Virus record (IMG/VR): IMGVR_UViG_3300030060_004810
Location: 1-57,767 of that record
Reading direction: 5' to 3' (one strand)
Length of the DNA: 57,767 bases
Source: a virus
Positions 28,329-56,876 of this stretch are shown here, in pieces. Position numbers and translations under genes: made by a program. Positions within the stretch are counted from its first letter, which is position 1; the number at the start of each line of letters is the position of its first letter. Below the pieces are notes generated by a model. The model was not told the origin of the DNA. It ran no database searches and was given only the letters and a program-made list of their open reading frames with translations.

Positions 28329-28811
28329 TTAAGATGCGTCAGAAGTGCTGGATATTCCAAAAAACTTCAGGACAATAACCGTGTCACCGCCGGGATCTCC
28401 CGAGAGAACAATCTCAACTTCATCTGCCGTGCCCGTAGCCGCAGTGGTTGTTCCACCGGACATCCCAAGAACACCGTTACATGGAAAATACCCTTTAAAG
28501 CCGGTTGAATTTACAGCCGCAGAAATACCGTCAACAAAACCGTCAGTATCGGCATCTGTGCCGATATCGTTAAGCGTGACAGAGTTTGAAGATGCAGTGG
28601 TAACAGCAATTGTAACCGCCATAGGAATAAAGTTGTCTGGAATGCCAATCGCAGACTCTTTGCCCGTGGTAGCACCATCCGCCACCGTGATGGTCGCTTC
28701 GTAAGTAGAAAGCGTCATAGTGCTGGTTACAGCGCCGGTAGTAGAGTTTTTGGTAATGTCTGAGAAACCGTTTTCAGAACGGACGGGACCGTTAAACGTA
28801 GTATTAGCCAT
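28329..28811 (-). CDS. Putative virion (decoration) protein downstream of capsid
   Basis: 160 aa, Thr/Ser/Gly/Ala rich and beta-like (TTGAVTSTMTLSTYEATITV). Has AGGAGA before the ATG and a candidate promoter of its own upstream, so its expression may be separated from the major capsid gene by the terminator at 28897-28920. A capsid decoration role is a guess. Confidence 0.75.
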   Translation of the reverse strand: MANTTFNGPVRSENGFSDITKNSTTGAVTSTMTLSTYEATITVADGATTGKESAIGIPDNFIPMAVTIAVTTASSNSVTLNDIGTDADTDGFVDGISAAVNSTGFKGYFPCNGVLGMSGGTTTAATGTADEVEIVLSGDPGGDTVIVLKFFGISSTSDAS

Positions 28812-28849
28812 GAGGTTCTCCTGTCGTGGCCAGTGTCAGCCTCAGTATG

Positions 28850-28899
28850 GGGCTGTCAGGAAAAATTTATATTAACATAAATGTTCCACGTGGAACAAA
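28850..28899 (-). promoter_or_regulatory. Candidate promoter with parS-like palindrome in its spacer
   Basis: On the minus strand TTGTTC (first Ts shared with the terminator T-tract), an 18-nt spacer containing most of the palindrome, then TAATAT and TATAAA. A protein bound to the palindrome would block this promoter. Boxes are only moderately good. Confidence 0.4.
28882..28897. promoter_or_regulatory. parS-like palindrome 1
   Basis: TGTTCCACGTGGAACA, a perfect 16-bp palindrome equal to the consensus ParB-binding site parS of bacterial chromosomes. Lies in the intergenic gap after the major capsid gene, touching a terminator T-tract. The same sequence recurs at 40551, and a one-base variant at 31826. 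Confidence 0.75.
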
Positions 28900-41500: not shown

Positions 41501-41565
41501 GTCTCCAAAGTGACGCCGCGACATTGCGGCAAGCGCAGTATGCGATAAAAGCCAGACAAAAAAAA
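41501..41565 (-). promoter_or_regulatory. Leader of unit 1: promoter, 5' stem-loop and ribosome site
   Basis: -35 TTTTTT (41560-41565, the T-tract of the terminator of unit 2), 17-nt spacer, -10 CATACT (41537-41542). The stem-loop GCCGC...GCGGC (41515-41530) would start at about +1, followed by CTTTGGAGA and the ATG at 41494. Confidence 0.7.
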
Positions 41566-41584
41566 CCCCGCCTCGAGGGCGGGG
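41558..41584 (-). terminator. Intrinsic terminator, unit 2
   Basis: Minus-strand CCCCGCC / GGCGGGG stem, loop CTCGA, eight T (41558-41565). The T run doubles as the -35 position of the unit 1 promoter. Confidence 0.93.
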
Positions 41585-41604
41585 TCTGGATCGGATCGCT
41601 TGCG

Positions 41605-41793
41605 CTATCTATCTCTCTTCGAGAATGACTCGGTCCACGCTATGAACACCGCCTTGGCTGTACTGCGATCCAAGTCGAAATTCTCTTCGAGCCATTGGGG
41701 CGCGCCGAACATGTTGATGGCGCCAGAATCCCGTAGGCTATCGAGTGTCTCAAAGTACTCAGAGTGTAAAGGCTGATCTGCTGAAATTTCCAT
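41605..41793 (-). CDS. Small acidic protein, unknown (unit 2)
   Basis: 62 aa: MEISADQPLHSEYFETLDSL, SGAINMFGAPQWLEENFDLD, AKAVFIAWTESF. Single gene of its unit. Start fixed by TTTGGAGA 9 nt upstream; longer in-frame extension would run through the leader and terminator. Unknown role. Confidence 0.82.
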   Translation of the reverse strand: MEISADQPLHSEYFETLDSLRDSGAINMFGAPQWLEENFDLDRSTAKAVFIAWTESFSKRDR

Positions 41794-41799
41794 AATTGT

Positions 41800-41865
41800 A
41801 TTCTCCAAAGATTCGCCGCGACATTGCGACCGTGAAACTATCGCATATCTCACGGGCAAAAAAAA
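41800..41865 (-). promoter_or_regulatory. Leader of unit 2: promoter, 5' stem-loop and ribosome site
   Basis: -35 TTTTTT (41860-41865), 17-nt spacer, extended -10 TGC-GATAGT (41837-41842). TCGC...GCGA stem near 41813-41829 at the predicted 5' end, then TTTGGAGA. Confidence 0.7.
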
Positions 41866-41882
41866 CCCCGCTCGAGGCGGGG
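41858..41882 (-). terminator. Intrinsic terminator, unit 3
   Basis: Stem CCCCGC / GCGGGG, loop of 5, eight T. T run at the -35 position of the unit 2 promoter. Confidence 0.93.
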
Positions 41883-41902
41883 TAGGTAAAAGCCGGAATT
41901 GC

Positions 41903-42289
41903 TTAGGCGATTTTCTGATCAGCCGCGGACATGGTGTCGATTGTGTCGCGCATTTGAATATTGGCCCGCTCAATGTATTGGATATGAGCGGTTAAGCCGT
42001 CTATTAACGATCGGATCAGCGTAATAAATTCGGCCCCAGTGTCAGGACCCCCGCTCTCTAAAAACGTCTTCACCTTGTCATAGTCAACAGCATGCGCTTC
42101 GGGCATATCAACCCCATTTAACACGGCGGCCTCGATAACTTCGGCCATAGATATATTGCTGTTATCCATTAACTCGAGAATGTCTTCGGCATCATCCGCC
42201 GATACGCCATCGGGCACTTCGTCGCATACTTCGAAAGTCGCTGTGACTTCCACGTCTTGGTCTTGGCTCAAATCAATTCGTATCGCCAT
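41903..42289 (-). CDS. Acidic 128-aa protein, unknown (unit 3)
   Basis: Strongly acidic protein starting MAIRIDLSQDQDVEVTATFE, then DDAEDILELMDNSNISMAEV and an extended C-terminal helix (LIDGLTAHIQYIERANIQMR). ATG at 42289 is chosen for TTTTGGAGA 9 nt upstream. Negative charge and size could fit a DNA mimic or host-protein inhibitor, but nothing proves this. Confidence 0.82.
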   Translation of the reverse strand: MAIRIDLSQDQDVEVTATFEVCDEVPDGVSADDAEDILELMDNSNISMAEVIEAAVLNGVDMPEAHAVDYDKVKTFLESGGPDTGAEFITLIRSLIDGLTAHIQYIERANIQMRDTIDTMSAADQKIA

Positions 42290-42295
42290 GGTTCT

Positions 42296-42362
42296 AATCT
42301 CCAAAATGAAAGCCGCAAAATTACGGCACGGCTAGTGTCGCATATGCGGCGGGCAAAAAAAA
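42296..42362 (-). promoter_or_regulatory. Leader of unit 3: promoter, 5' stem-loop and ribosome site
   Basis: -35 TTTTTT (42357-42362), 17-nt spacer, extended -10 TGC-GACACT (42334-42339). Stem-loop GCCG...CGGC (42312-42327) starting at predicted +1. Confidence 0.68.
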
Positions 42363-42378
42363 CCCCGCCGAGGCGGGG
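42355..42378 (-). terminator. Intrinsic terminator, unit 4
   Basis: Stem CCCCGCC / GGCGGGG with a 2-base apex, eight T. Confidence 0.92.
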
Positions 42379-42406
42379 TTAGGCGGCACTTTGTTTTCGC
42401 ACCGCA

Positions 42407-42544
42407 TCATGCAACGCCGAGACACTTTTTCAGGTTGGCAATATCCACCGCGTCCCGTCCCGTATGAGTGGGCTTCGCTAACAATCGAGCGAGGGCGCGC
42501 TCCTGCCGCACCCGCTTCCCTTTTTTCCTCCAAGCTTTTGCCAT
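42407..42544 (-). CDS. 45-aa basic protein, unknown (unit 4)
   Basis: Very short gene: MAKAWRKKGKRVRQERALAR, then LLAKPTHTGRDAVDIANLKK and CLGVA. Highly basic N terminus. The best ribosome site of the region (TTTGGAGGA, 6 nt away) plus its own promoter, leader stem-loop and terminator support it despite its size. The overlapping 70-aa frame on the same strand runs through the terminator and is not real. Confidence 0.82.
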   Translation of the reverse strand: MAKAWRKKGKRVRQERALARLLAKPTHTGRDAVDIANLKKCLGVA

Positions 42545-42549
42545 GGTCT

Positions 42550-42615
42550 TATCCTCCAAAGTCGCCGCAACATTACGGCAACGCATACTCTCGCATATAT
42601 GGCGGATAAAAAAAA
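42550..42615 (-). promoter_or_regulatory. Leader of unit 4: promoter, 5' stem-loop and ribosome site
   Basis: -35 TTTTTT (42610-42615), 17-nt spacer, extended -10 TGC-GAGAGT (42587-42592). Stem-loop GCCGC...(A)CGGC at 42564-42579, at predicted +1. Confidence 0.7.
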
Positions 42616-42631
42616 CCCCGCCGAGGCGGGG
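42608..42631 (-). terminator. Intrinsic terminator, unit 5
   Basis: Stem CCCCGCC / GGCGGGG, eight T. Ends the three-gene unit 43641-42639. Confidence 0.92.
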
Positions 42632-42638
42632 TCAAATG

Positions 42639-42830
42639 TCACTTAGGGTGATACCAACTGGGGGCGCGGGCTTGCTCCCCGTGGCGTTGCCAATAGTCGG
42701 CATAGTGTCGCGCCTCCTGATACATTCGGAACCAATCCGGATTGCTCTGGGGAAATCGTGAGCGCATCGCCGCCCGATGCCAGCGCAAATACCGCGCCGC
42801 CTTTGCCCGCCAACATTCTCGCTTATTCAT
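42639..42830 (-). CDS. Small basic Trp/Arg-rich protein (unit 5, third gene)
   Basis: 63 aa: MNKRECWRAKAARYLRWHRA, DWFRMYQEARHYADYWQRHG. Basic, aromatic, helical; unknown. ATG overlaps the upstream stop (ATGA). The terminator starts 8 nt after its stop codon. Confidence 0.8.
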   Translation of the reverse strand: MNKRECWRAKAARYLRWHRAAMRSRFPQSNPDWFRMYQEARHYADYWQRHGEQARAPSWYHPK

Positions 42831-47772: not shown

Positions 47773-48911
47773 CACGATAGTCTCTCTTCTAATGGCTGTA
47801 CGAGCCGGTAGATATTACCTTCATAGGTCGTTTGACGGGGTCCTACAAAGCTGGGTTTGACGTAAATCTTTTGTTGGTACTGGGGGTGGTGCCTGTACCG
47901 TGGGTGACTCAGCGTCCTCCAGTAGCCTCTGCGGCGGTGTGGTTTAGGTGAAGCGTGAGTCCCGGTCCCTTCTTTCTGCGTGGCGGGCATTCGGTCCAAC
48001 AAAAGCACGTGAGGGCCGCTGGCCGTGTTCCATGGTCGGTCACGGTTTGCCAGATTGCTCTTGGATTTAGCAAGCTTTTTAGGGTTGGGTAGCACTTCGA
48101 CGGCGTGTCGATTTCCGTATTTTAAATATCGGTGCATACTCCCAACTTCCGTTAATGTTTTAGCAGTACAGTCTCCCCCCTCTTTTTGAGAACTGTCAGG
48201 AATTGAATTGTGTATATAAAAATCATCAGTTGACTTTGTTGGAAAGTAATACCACCGAGGCCTTAAATCACCCAAATCGCCTTGGAAAGCAATAATTTCT
48301 TTTTTTTCGCTAGGGGTATAAATTGGATGGTCTAAGTCAGGTATCCAAAAACAATACGTTCCTAGAATAGCGGGGTCTGTCCACTCGCCTTTATCCCAAA
48401 AAGACACGGCGCACAAACCATAATAAAAATCATGGCTGTCGAGATCAAACATCCGGTCCTCTGGTGTATCCGAATCTGCAAGCATTCTTTGTACAAAATT
48501 GCATGAAAATGCGTCTTCTTCTAATTCTTTACTAAGCGGGTGGTCTTCGTTATCTCCCTTTATAAAATACACCCACTTTCTGACGGGACCTTTTTTTACG
48601 TTGGCAAGATCTTTCCAATAATCTTCTGCCAAAAAAACAAAATCGTCATAAAGCCATTTAGTTTTTGACTCAAACCATTCTTCGTAAGGAAGATCTCCGC
48701 GTTCTTTCCAACCAAATTCGGCGTTCATAACGCGTTCAAAAAGTCCGGGTTCGGTTTGCTCAAAATGCTTTCCCCAAAGACTAATTATTGGTGCATGTAA
48801 AGACTTCAAAATCATTTTTTTGATCAAGGGGCTTTGCCACCCGGTGTCAGGTCTGTCTAAGCCACGCAGAGTTTTTCTCACAAAATCGTAATCTGGGCGA
48901 CGCATGGTCAT
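47772..48911 (-). CDS. Unknown 379-aa protein with C-terminal RRGYWRTLSHPRYRHHP motif
   Basis: 379 aa. The N-terminal two thirds (IISLWGKHFEQTEPGLFERV, YFIKGDNEDHPLSKELEEDA) are unlike anything I know; the C-terminal 80 residues (HRRRGYWRTLSHPRYRHHPQ, IYVKPSFVGPRQT) form a short conserved module found in many phage proteins of unknown function. AT-rich relative to its neighbours, so it may have arrived separately. Start ATG 48911 overlaps the upstream TGA. Confidence 0.8.
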   Translation of the reverse strand: MTMRRPDYDFVRKTLRGLDRPDTGWQSPLIKKMILKSLHAPIISLWGKHFEQTEPGLFERVMNAEFGWKERGDLPYEEWFESKTKWLYDDFVFLAEDYWKDLANVKKGPVRKWVYFIKGDNEDHPLSKELEEDAFSCNFVQRMLADSDTPEDRMFDLDSHDFYYGLCAVSFWDKGEWTDPAILGTYCFWIPDLDHPIYTPSEKKEIIAFQGDLGDLRPRWYYFPTKSTDDFYIHNSIPDSSQKEGGDCTAKTLTEVGSMHRYLKYGNRHAVEVLPNPKKLAKSKSNLANRDRPWNTASGPHVLLLDRMPATQKEGTGTHASPKPHRRRGYWRTLSHPRYRHHPQYQQKIYVKPSFVGPRQTTYEGNIYRLVQPLEERLS

Positions 48912-49108
48912 CACCCCCGCTTACTGGTCATGGGGCGCATGTATCGTTCTTCGGCAAGTTGCACACGTTTCTTGGACCCGTCTGCCCACATGATCTCCAT
49001 CCACTTACGGCCCCGCTTCAAGATAGCCGCGGCCCGTGTTCCGTTATCCGTGTGGTATAGCACGGGTTCCCAGCCCCTGTTGAGGGCTTTTCGATAAGTC
49101 AGTTTCAT
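48911..49108 (-). CDS. Small basic protein, unknown
   Basis: 65 aa: MKLTYRKALNRGWEPVLYHT, then DNGTRAAAILKRGRKWMEIM and basic end RPMTSKRG. Beta-rich, SH3-like impression. Has a perfect AGGAGA site and the sigma70-like promoter at 49134-49163; first gene of the unit that ends near 47398. Confidence 0.8.
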   Translation of the reverse strand: MKLTYRKALNRGWEPVLYHTDNGTRAAAILKRGRKWMEIMWADGSKKRVQLAEERYMRPMTSKRG

Positions 49109-49133: not shown

Positions 49134-49163
49134 ATTTTACCACGCTTTACTCTCATACGTCAA
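49134..49163 (-). promoter_or_regulatory. Sigma70-like promoter for the 49108 gene unit
   Basis: TTGACG (49158-49163), 18-nt spacer, TAAAAT (49134-49139). Shares TTGACNTATGAGAGTAA-like sequence with the promoter at 49418-49446. Confidence 0.7.
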
Positions 49164-49168
49164 ATGGT

Positions 49169-49217
49169 AAAAAAGCTGTGTCCTAGTCTTTACGAGCATT
49201 CTTTATGAAATACTAGG
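49169..49217 (-). terminator. Terminator-like hairpin of the candidate ncRNA
   Basis: Minus-strand CCTAGT-A-TTT (49217-49208) pairs with AAA-G-ACTAGG (49191-49182), followed after 7 nt by six T (49174-49169). The longer than usual gap to the T run lowers confidence. Confidence 0.5.
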
Positions 49218-49411
49218 CTCCCGCGCCTCGTATTAATACATTTTTTGTAGTCACCACCAACAACAAAAAACGCACAGACTAGGTATTGCAACCGACTACA
49301 GCCAAAACCGGCTGGGCGTGGGACAAAAGGTAAAAACCCACTCGAACAAAACTCTTAGAGGAGGTGCGGCAACACCTAGTTTTGCTCTACCCAAGAGGAG
49401 TGCGAGAGCCC
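49169..49411 (-). ncRNA. Candidate structured non-coding RNA (about 243 nt)
   Basis: Flanked by a good promoter (49418-49446) and a terminator-like hairpin; contains no gene. Predicted hairpins: GCTCT/AGAGC at the 5' end (49384-49409); AAAACT...AGTTTT with inner AGGTG/CACCT (49348-49383); CAGCC/GGCTG (49299-49314); CCTAGT/ACTAGG (49182-49217). The second hairpin displays CACCTCCT, the same as the anti-Shine-Dalgarno end of 16S rRNA. It matches no RNA family I know. Confidence 0.5.
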
Positions 49412-49417
49412 ATTCAC

Positions 49418-49446
49418 ACCTTACAGAGGATTACTCTCATAGTCAA
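49418..49446 (-). promoter_or_regulatory. Sigma70-like promoter for the candidate ncRNA
   Basis: TTGACT (49441-49446), 17-nt spacer containing ATGAGAGTAA, TAAGGT (49418-49423), in the 374-base gap between two genes. Confidence 0.65.
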
Positions 49447-49448
49447 AT

Positions 49449-49487
49449 GATAGAAAAACGGAAAGGGTTGTGTTTTGGTTTTCTATC
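49449..49487 (-). terminator. Hairpin at the end of the 50571-49483 operon
   Basis: GATAGAAAAC (49487-49478) pairs with GTTTTTCTATC (49459-49449) with one bulge; the stop codon lies in the stem. T/A-rich stem, weak terminator or RNA end. Confidence 0.5.
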
Positions 49488-49743
49488 GAAACTTGCGTTG
49501 GATGTATTTGAAGACGCTGTAGATGGTCAGCACGTAGAAGGCTATGACGGTCATGGGTATGGAGATGTAGGCCAGTTCCCATGGGGACAGGAACAGAAGC
49601 TCCCACGTGAAGTGGATGGCGGACTCCACGTCTCCCATGGGACCTATGTCATAGGCTATGTCGTTTTCTTCGAGCAGGAACTGGAGGTCGTCCCATTCTT
49701 CGGGCGTGTAGCACCGGACGTAATCTTCCGGACAGGGTTGCAT
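49483..49743 (-). CDS. Small C-terminally anchored membrane protein
   Basis: 86 aa. Acidic N-terminal part (CYTPEEWDDLQFLLEENDIA) and hydrophobic C-terminal segments (WELLFLSPWELAYISIPM, VIAFYVLTIYSVFKYIQRK). One or two membrane spans with a basic end. Function unknown; could be a superinfection exclusion or envelope protein. Starts on the base where the previous gene stops. Confidence 0.75.
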   Translation of the reverse strand: MQPCPEDYVRCYTPEEWDDLQFLLEENDIAYDIGPMGDVESAIHFTWELLFLSPWELAYISIPMTVIAFYVLTIYSVFKYIQRKFR

Positions 49744-53839: not shown

Positions 53840-55338
53840 AACGCATAGGCCCTTAAATAGTCGTCCGGTTCGAGGATGTAGAGGTTTTTTAATGTGCGAG
53901 TGACCCCCACATAGAAAACGCGGTGTAGATCATCGCCGCCTTCTTCTATGGCCGCGGCAGTAAGATCAGGCAGGATCACCACGTTCTCTGCTTCGCCGCC
54001 CTTTGTGCCGTGAATCGTGGACAGTCGGATGCGCGGCTTGGCGTTGAACTTCTCGCCGCTCCGCAAGAGAGCCGTTATGTAGGCCCTGTCGGCATCTGGG
54101 ATGCGATCCATAGCCTCATGCCAGATCATTTGGTCAGTGGCCAGTAAGCCGTAATGATCTTGCAGTTGCTTGAGGTCGAACATGTCTTCGTCGTCTGCGG
54201 CTATGTTTTTGTGGCCACGTTTTATCCGTGCACCATTTCCGGTCATGTACCCGTAGATTGCTTGCACTGCACCAAAAGGGATCGCCTTACCTTTCCGCAT
54301 GGTTTCCCAGCCGTTGATGGCCAGTGACATCTTTTCGGGAATAGAGCGTCTGCCTGCCTGTGTTTCAAACAAATAGCCGCCATTTTTAAGCTCTTGCTGG
54401 ATGTCATAAAGCATGTAGCGAGCTTGGGCCATGATGAGCCAACTACCCTCGGACATGTCTATTGTCCTGATATCAGGAACACGAAATATCTGTCCCTGCT
54501 CTTTTTTGGGGCGGTAGACCTTTGGGAAACGATTTTGTATGCGAGAAGCGATTTTCTCTGCTAAAACGTGAATTACTTCGGGAACGCGGTAACTTTGCTC
54601 TAAAACTTCGGCATCACCGGACAAGTTGATGAAATGGTCAACGTCCGCCCCAGCCCAGCGATAAATAGCCTGATCGTCGTCGCCTGCCACGTACATCCGC
54701 TCAGACTTTTCATCCAGCTTATGAGCAATGTCCCACTGCAAGGGCGACAGGTCTTGCGCTTCATCCAGAAAGCATATCTTCAGCGGGGGCATCAAATGAT
54801 CAGCTTCCTTGGCAAAACGCATGATCAAGTCTGTAAAGTCCATTAGGCCAAAGGTGCTTTTGTAGTTGGCGTAAGAGTCCGCAACATACTTCACTTCCAT
54901 CCACGTGAAGTTGACGTTGGAGTGGTTGTACTCATGCTCCAGCGCGGTTTTCTTGGTCTTTGACAGGTTGATGAGTTGCAAGATGGGGTGATCTGTAGCC
55001 TTAAACGACACATCTTCGTCATCGCTGGCCGAGCTATTTAGGTTAAAACCTATGGCTTGGGACAACTCTTTGTAATTCTGCGAACCCATCAACTCAGTCT
55101 CTTTGACGCCCATCAGCCGATATGCGAGAGAATGGATGGTGCGAAAATACGGCAGGTCCTTGTCAGGGTCCAAGTCAAACCGCTTGGCGGCGCGTTCTTT
55201 GGCCTCTGTCGCCGCCTTACGGGTAAACGCAAAGAAGCCTACCTGTGAGGGCGGGATGCCTTTGTCGAGGGTTTGTTCCACCATGTTCAGCAACGTAGTG
55301 GTCTTGCCGGTGCCGGGCGGCCCGAATATCCGGAACAT
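53836..55338 (-). CDS. UvrD/Rep-like superfamily 1 helicase
   Basis: 500 aa. Motif I FGPPGTGKTTT (5-15), II FLDEAQDLSPLQW, III AGDDDQAIYRWAGAD, IV EQSYRVPEVIHVLAEKI, V LSTIHGTKGGEAENVVIL, VI RVFYVGVTRTLKNLYIL: all standard for 3'-5' DNA helicases of the UvrD family. Shorter than UvrD (about 720 aa). Likely unwinds DNA at forks or recombination intermediates; no DnaB-type helicase is seen, so this may be the replicative helicase. Start overlaps the primase stop. Confidence 0.93.
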   Translation of the reverse strand: MFRIFGPPGTGKTTTLLNMVEQTLDKGIPPSQVGFFAFTRKAATEAKERAAKRFDLDPDKDLPYFRTIHSLAYRLMGVKETELMGSQNYKELSQAIGFNLNSSASDDEDVSFKATDHPILQLINLSKTKKTALEHEYNHSNVNFTWMEVKYVADSYANYKSTFGLMDFTDLIMRFAKEADHLMPPLKICFLDEAQDLSPLQWDIAHKLDEKSERMYVAGDDDQAIYRWAGADVDHFINLSGDAEVLEQSYRVPEVIHVLAEKIASRIQNRFPKVYRPKKEQGQIFRVPDIRTIDMSEGSWLIMAQARYMLYDIQQELKNGGYLFETQAGRRSIPEKMSLAINGWETMRKGKAIPFGAVQAIYGYMTGNGARIKRGHKNIAADDEDMFDLKQLQDHYGLLATDQMIWHEAMDRIPDADRAYITALLRSGEKFNAKPRIRLSTIHGTKGGEAENVVILPDLTAAAIEEGGDDLHRVFYVGVTRTLKNLYILEPDDYLRAYAL

Positions 55339-56876
55339 TAGAACGGGTCCGGGGTCCGTGGTTCAAAGCTTTTGGACTCTGGTCCTCCGGTAGGAGTCTC
55401 CGGTAAAGGTACGCGCCACACACGTATGGCTTTGCCCTTAATTTTTAACTGCACAGCCTCGCCATTGATGTCCCGTAGACGCTGGGCCACTTTATGGGTC
55501 TTAAACTCACTGAAGCGGTTTTTACGCAGAAATCCCTCAAAGTCTTTGAGCCTGAAATGAACAGCCTCGCCCTCTTCGTCCACCCATGGACGGCGAAGCA
55601 AAATTTCTTCCTTGTCTTCGGCTTTTTGTGTAGAAGTGCAGAACTCGTCCAAAAACTCGTAAAACTGTCCATTAATGCTGGCGTCCTCGCTCACCTCCAT
55701 AATTGCGCCGTCTGTCTCAGCCATTTCTTTCATAAGCTGGTTGATGCGGCCCTCCCACCCGCGGCGGGGCATGGTCTGAGGCATAAAATTAAGCTGTTCG
55801 ATACAGGCTTTCTGAAAGACGGTCTGGTTCTGAAGCGCGTCCGTGTCCAGTTCCAGCGGTACACCGTTCACGTCTAGGAACCATACGGGCGGGATGGAGT
55901 TGTATTTGCGTAAGTTTGCTACGGCCATGTCGCTGATAGCGGCTCCAATGCCAAACTTGCGGGTCTGGCATAGCTCACGGTTGCAGTACGGTTGGATCGG
56001 CGGCTCGTTGCACCGGTAGGCGTAGTCCTTTTTTTCCAACTGTTTGACCACGATATTGACCTCATTCAGAGGCAACGGCGGGTCGATGTAACTCATGTTG
56101 TGGTGGAGGATTTCGTCCTGCCACGTATCTGCGTAGGCTTTACGTAAGTAAACACCTATCGAAAAGAGTCCGTTGTTTCGGCCTCCTTCACTAATTTTCT
56201 GGGAGCATAGGGTTTGGAGACAGGGCGGACCGTCCACAATCGCTGTTCCTTCGACGGTAGCCTGCGTGAGTGCTTGTAGTTGCTCTGGTGTTTGGACGTG
56301 TGCCGCATGAAGCCCGAAAAACTCCTGCAATGTCGCGGCGGACCCATCATCGTTGAAAGCGTAGCGTAGCCCCTCTTCCGCATTGAAATACGGCATATTG
56401 AGGAAGTTACCGATATCGCCTCGGTCTAGGAAAAGTTTGATTTGCTTCGGAAATATTTCGCTACCGCCGTAGCCCAGCCCACTAGCTAGATGCTGAAGTG
56501 TGGACTGCATGATCTTGGCGGCCACCCAATCGGTGCTGAAGATGAAGCAGTGTGCGCCTCCGCTTTTGGACCGACAGACTACCAGAGGAAGCTTGGCGTG
56601 ACGAATCCGCTCCACCAACTTTGCATGGTCTAGTGGGTATTCATCAATATCGATGCAACCCCAAATGCACTTGTCGTCTTCATTAATCGGGATGATCCCG
56701 ATCCCTGCCCCTTCTCCAGCCAGATGTTGCTGGAAATGCTCCGTGGTGCGTGGCTCGCGAATAACTCGCGCTTTACCTTGTGATTTGCCATTAGAGCTTG
56801 TTCTGTCGATTTCAAACGTGCCGTAGGCTTGTTTGAGGCCATCAAATATGACCGAGAAACGATCTGCATCAGACAT
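55338..56876 (-). CDS. Archaeo-eukaryotic-type (TOTE-like) primase
   Basis: 512 aa. Motif I WGCIDIDEY (Asp76 and Asp78), motif II SKSGGAHCFIF (His109), then SEIFPKQIK (139-147), which together fit the TOTE conflict system AEP primase domain. C-terminal half is helical, with Cys cluster YRCNEPPIQPYCNRELCQ (around residue 300) that may bind zinc, and a basic end typical of primase C-terminal domains. Makes primers for the family A polymerase. Preceded by an RNA hairpin. Confidence 0.87.
   Translation of the reverse strand: MSDADRFSVIFDGLKQAYGTFEIDRTSSNGKSQGKARVIREPRTTEHFQQHLAGEGAGIGIIPINEDDKCIWGCIDIDEYPLDHAKLVERIRHAKLPLVVCRSKSGGAHCFIFSTDWVAAKIMQSTLQHLASGLGYGGSEIFPKQIKLFLDRGDIGNFLNMPYFNAEEGLRYAFNDDGSAATLQEFFGLHAAHVQTPEQLQALTQATVEGTAIVDGPPCLQTLCSQKISEGGRNNGLFSIGVYLRKAYADTWQDEILHHNMSYIDPPLPLNEVNIVVKQLEKKDYAYRCNEPPIQPYCNRELCQTRKFGIGAAISDMAVANLRKYNSIPPVWFLDVNGVPLELDTDALQNQTVFQKACIEQLNFMPQTMPRRGWEGRINQLMKEMAETDGAIMEVSEDASINGQFYEFLDEFCTSTQKAEDKEEILLRRPWVDEEGEAVHFRLKDFEGFLRKNRFSEFKTHKVAQRLRDINGEAVQLKIKGKAIRVWRVPLPETPTGGPESKSFEPRTPDPF

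Follow-up and report, generated by a model that had tools for sequence, protein, structure and literature searches.

In type III toxin-antitoxin systems, the ToxI-type antitoxin RNA consists of ~36-base tandem repeats beside the toxin gene. HDV-like ribozymes have a short J1/2, a P3 that is contiguous with the 3′ arm of P1, and a catalytic C in J4/2. The put RNA of phage HK022 is an RNA-only antiterminator that folds just downstream of an early promoter and needs no phage protein; it comprises ~70 bases in two stem-loops (PMC9378689). Phages and marine metagenomes also contain the structured manA and wcaG motifs (PMC2864571), which precede metabolic genes. Comparative genomics has yielded large, elaborately folded bacterial RNAs such as GOLLD, ROOL, and OLE (PMC12286853, in part), and phages can carry protein-binding pseudoknotted RNAs that serve as ToxI-type escape mimics (PMC3475682, in part).

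The window analyzed here is a 57,767-base virus record (IMG/VR IMGVR_UViG_3300030060_004810). Its DNA polymerase has its nearest isolate counterparts in phage DSL-LC04 and Pelagibacter phages, and from its relatives the source is probably a marine bacteriophage. The window also encodes a primase-like protein (55338-56876, minus strand) that resembles the AEP primase domain found in TOTE conflict systems (E = 1.5e-11). The gene-free gap of 374 bases with inverted repeats that the initial annotation described lies between the minus-strand ORFs 49483-49743 and 48911-49108. Along the minus strand, this gap holds TTGACT-N17-TAAGGT, a folded stretch ending in CACAGCTTTTTT, TTGACG-N18-TAAAAT, and then the next ORF. 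The minus strand folds more stably than shuffled sequence (z = -2.6), and the gap almost certainly encodes a conserved structured RNA. A coding interpretation was rejected: no reading frame is kept across relatives, and insertions and deletions break the frame. The best reading of these sequence comparisons is that the gap RNA belongs to a new phage RNA family without a known match, with the following predicted features.

49418-49446, minus strand: promoter of the RNA, TTGACT-N17-TAAGGT; a 29-base block kept in ten relatives
49169-49412, minus strand: noncoding RNA, predicted 5′ end at ~49412-49410; from covariation, G-U/A-C asymmetry, and the lack of a conserved reading frame
49402-49410, minus strand: P1 5′ arm GGCUCUCGC, pairing with 49216-49224 in the P6 loop; 9/9 pairs, eight distinct arm pairs
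49344-49387, minus strand: P5a hairpin GAGCAAAACU/AGUUUUGUUC with apical AGGUG/CACCU; three pairs with two-sided changes
49359-49366, minus strand: nonconserved CACCUCCU motif within the P5a hairpin
49319-49341, minus strand: P5b hairpin GUGGG/CCCAC; one pair with two-sided changes
49290-49313, minus strand: H1 hairpin AGCCGGUU/AGUCGGUU; from RNAalifold and covariation
49298-49302, minus strand: H1 loop GCUGU, complementary to the 3′ tail
49276-49283, minus strand: P2 5′ arm CCUAGUCU, pairing with 49181-49188; 100% paired, with two-sided changes in three pairs
49237-49274, minus strand: P3 hairpin UGCGUUUUUU/AAAAAAUGUA; from the core alignment and covariation
49192-49231, minus strand: P6 hairpin ACGAG/CUCGU; from RNAalifold and covariation
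49216-49224, minus strand: P1 3′ arm GCGGGAGCC, inside the P6 loop
49181-49188, minus strand: P2 3′ arm AGACUAGG; from RNAalifold and covariation
49175-49180, minus strand: invariant 3′ tail CACAGC, of which ACAGC is complementary to the H1 loop GCUGU
49134-49163, minus strand: second promoter, TTGACG-N18-TAAAAT, for ORF 48911-49108; from a promoter scan

Neighboring proteins and short patterns conserved in the RNA itself served as anchors for finding relatives. IMG/VR contigs hold at least 13 further distinct versions (L002, L084, L103, L111, L144, L155, L156, L163, L165, L005, L122, L126, and L202; L096 is near-identical to L005), and these form four clades: window-like, L144-like, compact L005, and L122-like. 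The RNA measures ~240 bases in the window and ~140 in its most compact relative, and it is single copy in the records searched. An alignment of the core from 12 sequences gave P2, P3, and H1, and unguided RNAalifold recovers these helices plus P6. The core helices are paired in 98.5% of cells (34 to 46% for slid helices), with 20 doubly changed cells (5.1 ± 1.7 in shuffles, 0 of 500 reaching 20) and nine pairs with two-sided changes (4.2 in shuffles); the relatives are metagenomic contigs from few clades, so that per-sequence changes are not independent and reflect fewer events than cells. The initial annotation, which proposed a promoter-driven structured noncoding RNA, had named covariation in related phages as its check: compensatory changes are present in every main helix, and the proposal is strongly supported by them. 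The variable 5′ domain covaries as well (P5a is GAGCAAAACU/AGUUUUGUUC or GGACAGGGUU/AGCCUUGUCC). P2 is CCUAGUC/GACUAGG in most copies and CCAACC/GGUUGG in those like L005 and L126, a GAAA tetraloop caps a short P3 stem in L144, L155, L156, and L163, and the unpaired stretches AUYAA and AAAG are strongly conserved. Forty G-U pairs and no A-C pairs occur in the core helices, and selection therefore acts on RNA of the minus strand.

The initial annotation did not include the pseudoknotted architecture or P1, whose 3′ arm lies ~180 bases downstream of its 5′ arm. All eight distinct P1 arm pairs are fully paired, with two-sided changes in six of nine pairs (for example, GGCUCUCGC/GCGGGAGCC, GGCCCCCGC/GCGGGGGCC, GCCUGUCGC/GCGACAGGU, and CUCUGAUGC/GCAUCAGAG); the register was picked per sequence, which leans toward structure, but the sequence changes themselves are plain. 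Because a longest-helix test for P1 did not discriminate from shuffles over long zones, fixed-register pair counts were used. P1 and P2 cross, and a pseudoknot is therefore well supported. The 3′ tail ACAGC and the H1 loop GCUGU are perfectly complementary and invariant in all 12 sequences; since this pairing never varies, and thus draws no support from covariation, we infer it from complementarity. Three other folds were rejected: a T-arm-like hairpin in GGUUGCAAYACC overlaps the better-supported H1, pairing of CACAGC with CUGUG in place of the H1 loop would disrupt both P2 and P3, and an unconstrained single-sequence fold is misleading in that it omits P2, which covariation supports.

TTGACT-N17-TAAGGT (minus strand, 49446-49418) stands as the promoter first proposed, and its block lies just upstream of P1 in ten relatives besides the window. 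A generic promoter scan misses it because its -10 element is poor, with 3 of 6 consensus matches. L103 keeps the 29-base block although its DNA further upstream is unrelated, and promoter and RNA therefore behave as one unit; the expected transcription start is at the P1 5′ arm. The second promoter that had been placed after the RNA (49163-49134, 10/12) is the best promoter match in 40 to 55 kb and the sole promoter remaining in L003, which lacks the RNA.

The position of the RNA 3′ end is uncertain. The conserved core ends at CACAGC (49175), followed in the window by T6 (49169); this run is confined to the window copy, and relatives carry TTTTC, TTCATTC, TACC, or CACCCC, with TTTTC in close relatives and CACCCC in the L144 clade. 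The terminator-like hairpin with T6 in the initial annotation is not supported, and neither is an sRNA ending at an intrinsic terminator (GC-rich hairpin plus U-run): scans found no minus-strand terminator-like site near 49169, and the T-run is not conserved. In L103, L144, L155, L156, L163, and L005, the RNA enters the next ORF without a terminator or second promoter, and there it is therefore also an mRNA leader.

The RNA is accessory, because close relatives cleanly lack it at two unrelated sites. At the first, L003 (DNA polymerase 98% identical to that of the window) has a single promoter in place of the promoter, RNA, and promoter of the window; it keeps the flanking genes, and no copy of the RNA was found anywhere in its 54-kb record. 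The second lies beside terminase genes, where L256 to L260 have the RNA and L261 and L262 do not, with terminase small subunits 89% identical. The L122-like clade, in phages with different neighboring genes, carries the RNA directly after a terminase small-subunit-like gene, and in L122, L126, and L202 it does so without the conserved promoter. Repeated, operator-like palindromes (e.g., GTTAGTGACCACTAAC and GTTAGTGAGCACTAAC) also follow the terminase small-subunit gene with or without the RNA (L256/L257 after 3045/3627, L261 after 972, L262 after 1911). Many more distant relatives lack the RNA beside the neighboring 92-aa gene, though some of these loci may be incomplete. Model searches gave no match in the isolated phages DSL-LC04 and HTVC023P and none in 563 bacterial genomes (274 and 289 from two classes); without a positive control, these searches are weak evidence of absence. 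Neither a core-pattern scan of genome contigs (32 matches, none judged a family member) nor a further viral scan with the P3/J pattern added members, phage records searched with the RNA by Blast returned nothing relevant, and a weak model match in L085 (13.9 bits) was rejected as lying in a protein-coding stretch at odds with the structure.

Relatives differ in their first downstream ORF (65-, 78-, 118-, 46-, and 39-aa types), and no Pfam family matched the neighboring and downstream ORFs tested, which argues against a gene-specific switch; a gene-specific riboswitch leader was rejected since this ORF is not of the same family in relatives. L144, L155, L156, L163, L103, and L005 have a hypervariable slot of small ORFs without known family before a conserved MEATVL... 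gene. Two phages that otherwise differ encode, close to the RNA, a 31-aa membrane peptide with a single helix (M[ST]DRIGQLF...); it lies ~290 to 380 bases upstream of the 3′ end of the RNA in L163 and ~580 to 676 bases downstream in L150.

The initial annotation recognized no known RNA family, and indeed the RNA matches none of 4,227 Rfam 15 families at the gathering score. Permissive Rfam searches (E ≤ 10 for a piece of the window and E ≤ 5 for six relatives) gave nothing significant at the RNA, with only two subthreshold chance matches in the window piece, and ARAGORN found no tRNA or tmRNA in the window. Our literature search, confined to open-licence papers and hence no proof of absence, found no description of this RNA. 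The window does carry one known phage RNA element, Mu-gpT-DE (28809-28861, minus strand; 65.4 bits, E = 5.8e-13), just upstream of ORF 28329-28811. A group I intron, marked by splice junctions and by a catalytic core whose conserved sequences Rfam recognizes, was rejected: there is no Rfam match, the P2 sequence changes freely, and the RNA starts at its own promoter.

We favor an undescribed RNA family with buried ends, carried as an accessory cassette and acting in trans by binding protein, and we put the probability of this whole statement at about 0.5. Transcription would start at the P1 5′ arm; P2, P3, and P6 form a three-way junction; the 5′ end pairs into the P6 loop through P1, and the 3′ end probably into the H1 loop. 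With both termini thus buried, the RNA would be compact and resistant to degradation. It may then bind a protein factor from host or phage and serve as a decoy or inhibitor, with promoter and RNA gained and lost by phages as one cassette. A start at its own promoter and the probable folding of both ends into pseudoknots suggest a stable, self-acting RNA. Far less can be said for a small RNA that sequesters strong ribosome-binding sites through CACCUCCU, the anti-Shine-Dalgarno role first suggested. CACCTCCT is present in the window copy at 49359-49366, but it is absent from all 13 other relatives tested, which refutes such a role as a family function. Its CACC lies inside a predicted stem, in a variable hairpin, and the motif is no commoner than chance in the whole window (2 found, 1.5 expected); we consider this explanation very improbable. 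The likeness once drawn to the mRNAs of the 41- to 46-kb units is superficial, as their short GCCGTAAT...GCGGC leader hairpin does not occur in this RNA. At 41540-42720 (minus strand), small gene units form a chain resembling serial cassettes; each has an ATATGCGA-type block, the GCCGTAAT...GCGGC hairpin, a site resembling a Shine-Dalgarno sequence, an ORF, and a strong terminator rich in GC. Just as hard to credit is an element that works as DNA (an origin, operator array, or palindromes): inverted repeats do lie between genes and between two promoters, but neither the 40 G-U against 0 A-C pairs nor the long-range covariation with pseudoknots would be expected without selection on the RNA strand, and a close relative lacks the region.

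A self-processing RNA, that is, a new ribozyme whose nested pseudoknots position a cleavage site, would explain terminator-free release and the copies directly after a terminase gene, and it would suit the P1/P2 pseudoknot, the conserved unpaired AUYAA and AAAG, and the lack of a conserved terminator. Yet no known ribozyme family matched in Rfam, and with P1 at the expected start, most members would lose next to nothing by self-cleavage at the 5′ end, so that we regard a ribozyme as improbable. An HDV-like fold in particular was rejected: J1/2 holds a domain and H1, ~10 bases including the 5′ strand of P6 separate P3 from the P1 3′ arm, and Rfam gave no match. The main rival, possible though less than likely, is a cis-acting 5′ leader that controls or protects its own transcript, for example by modifying RNA polymerase to pass the terminators downstream, as put does, or as a general stability or attenuation element for the variable-gene slot. 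It accords with the place of the RNA at the head of a transcription unit, with the six relatives that run into the next ORF without a second promoter (with an ATG at +31 after CACAGC in L144, L155, L156, and L163), with a window region downstream that is rich in strong terminator-like sites, and with put, which acts immediately beyond an early promoter of its phage (PMC9378689). Against it, the strong second promoter in the window clade means that genes beyond the RNA need no read-through, L003 keeps the flanking genes without the RNA, and the architecture of put, ~70 bases in two stem-loops, is different. At about even odds, we favor a trans-acting, protein-binding RNA over a general cis leader. 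Its boldest form, an accessory class of phage RNA effectors with ends locked in pseudoknots, swapped as a cassette and disabling a host machine or defense protein without a protein product, is a tentative idea that we rather doubt.

Searches for accessory genes in phages nearly always look for proteins; a strongly conserved RNA with pseudoknots, sitting in a gain/loss slot of the kind such genes occupy, would extend to RNA the cargo that phages trade. With compact members of ~140 bases and a precise secondary structure, the proposal lends itself to direct tests by probing, pull-down, and structure determination.

Among described systems, manA and wcaG precede metabolic genes, whereas the genes downstream of the gap RNA vary and match no Pfam family, and Rfam does not match it to either motif. 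A ToxI-type identity was rejected, as the gap RNA has no tandem repeats and its neighbors match no Pfam family; it is a much larger, single-copy fold. With GOLLD, ROOL, and OLE it has an elaborate fold in common, but it is much smaller and without an Rfam match. A promoter-proximal position is common to put and the gap RNA; a put-type identity was nevertheless rejected because size and fold differ. Unlike put, the gap RNA spans 140 to 240 bases, its pseudoknots join the ends to internal loops, it is accessory, and in the window clade a new promoter follows it.
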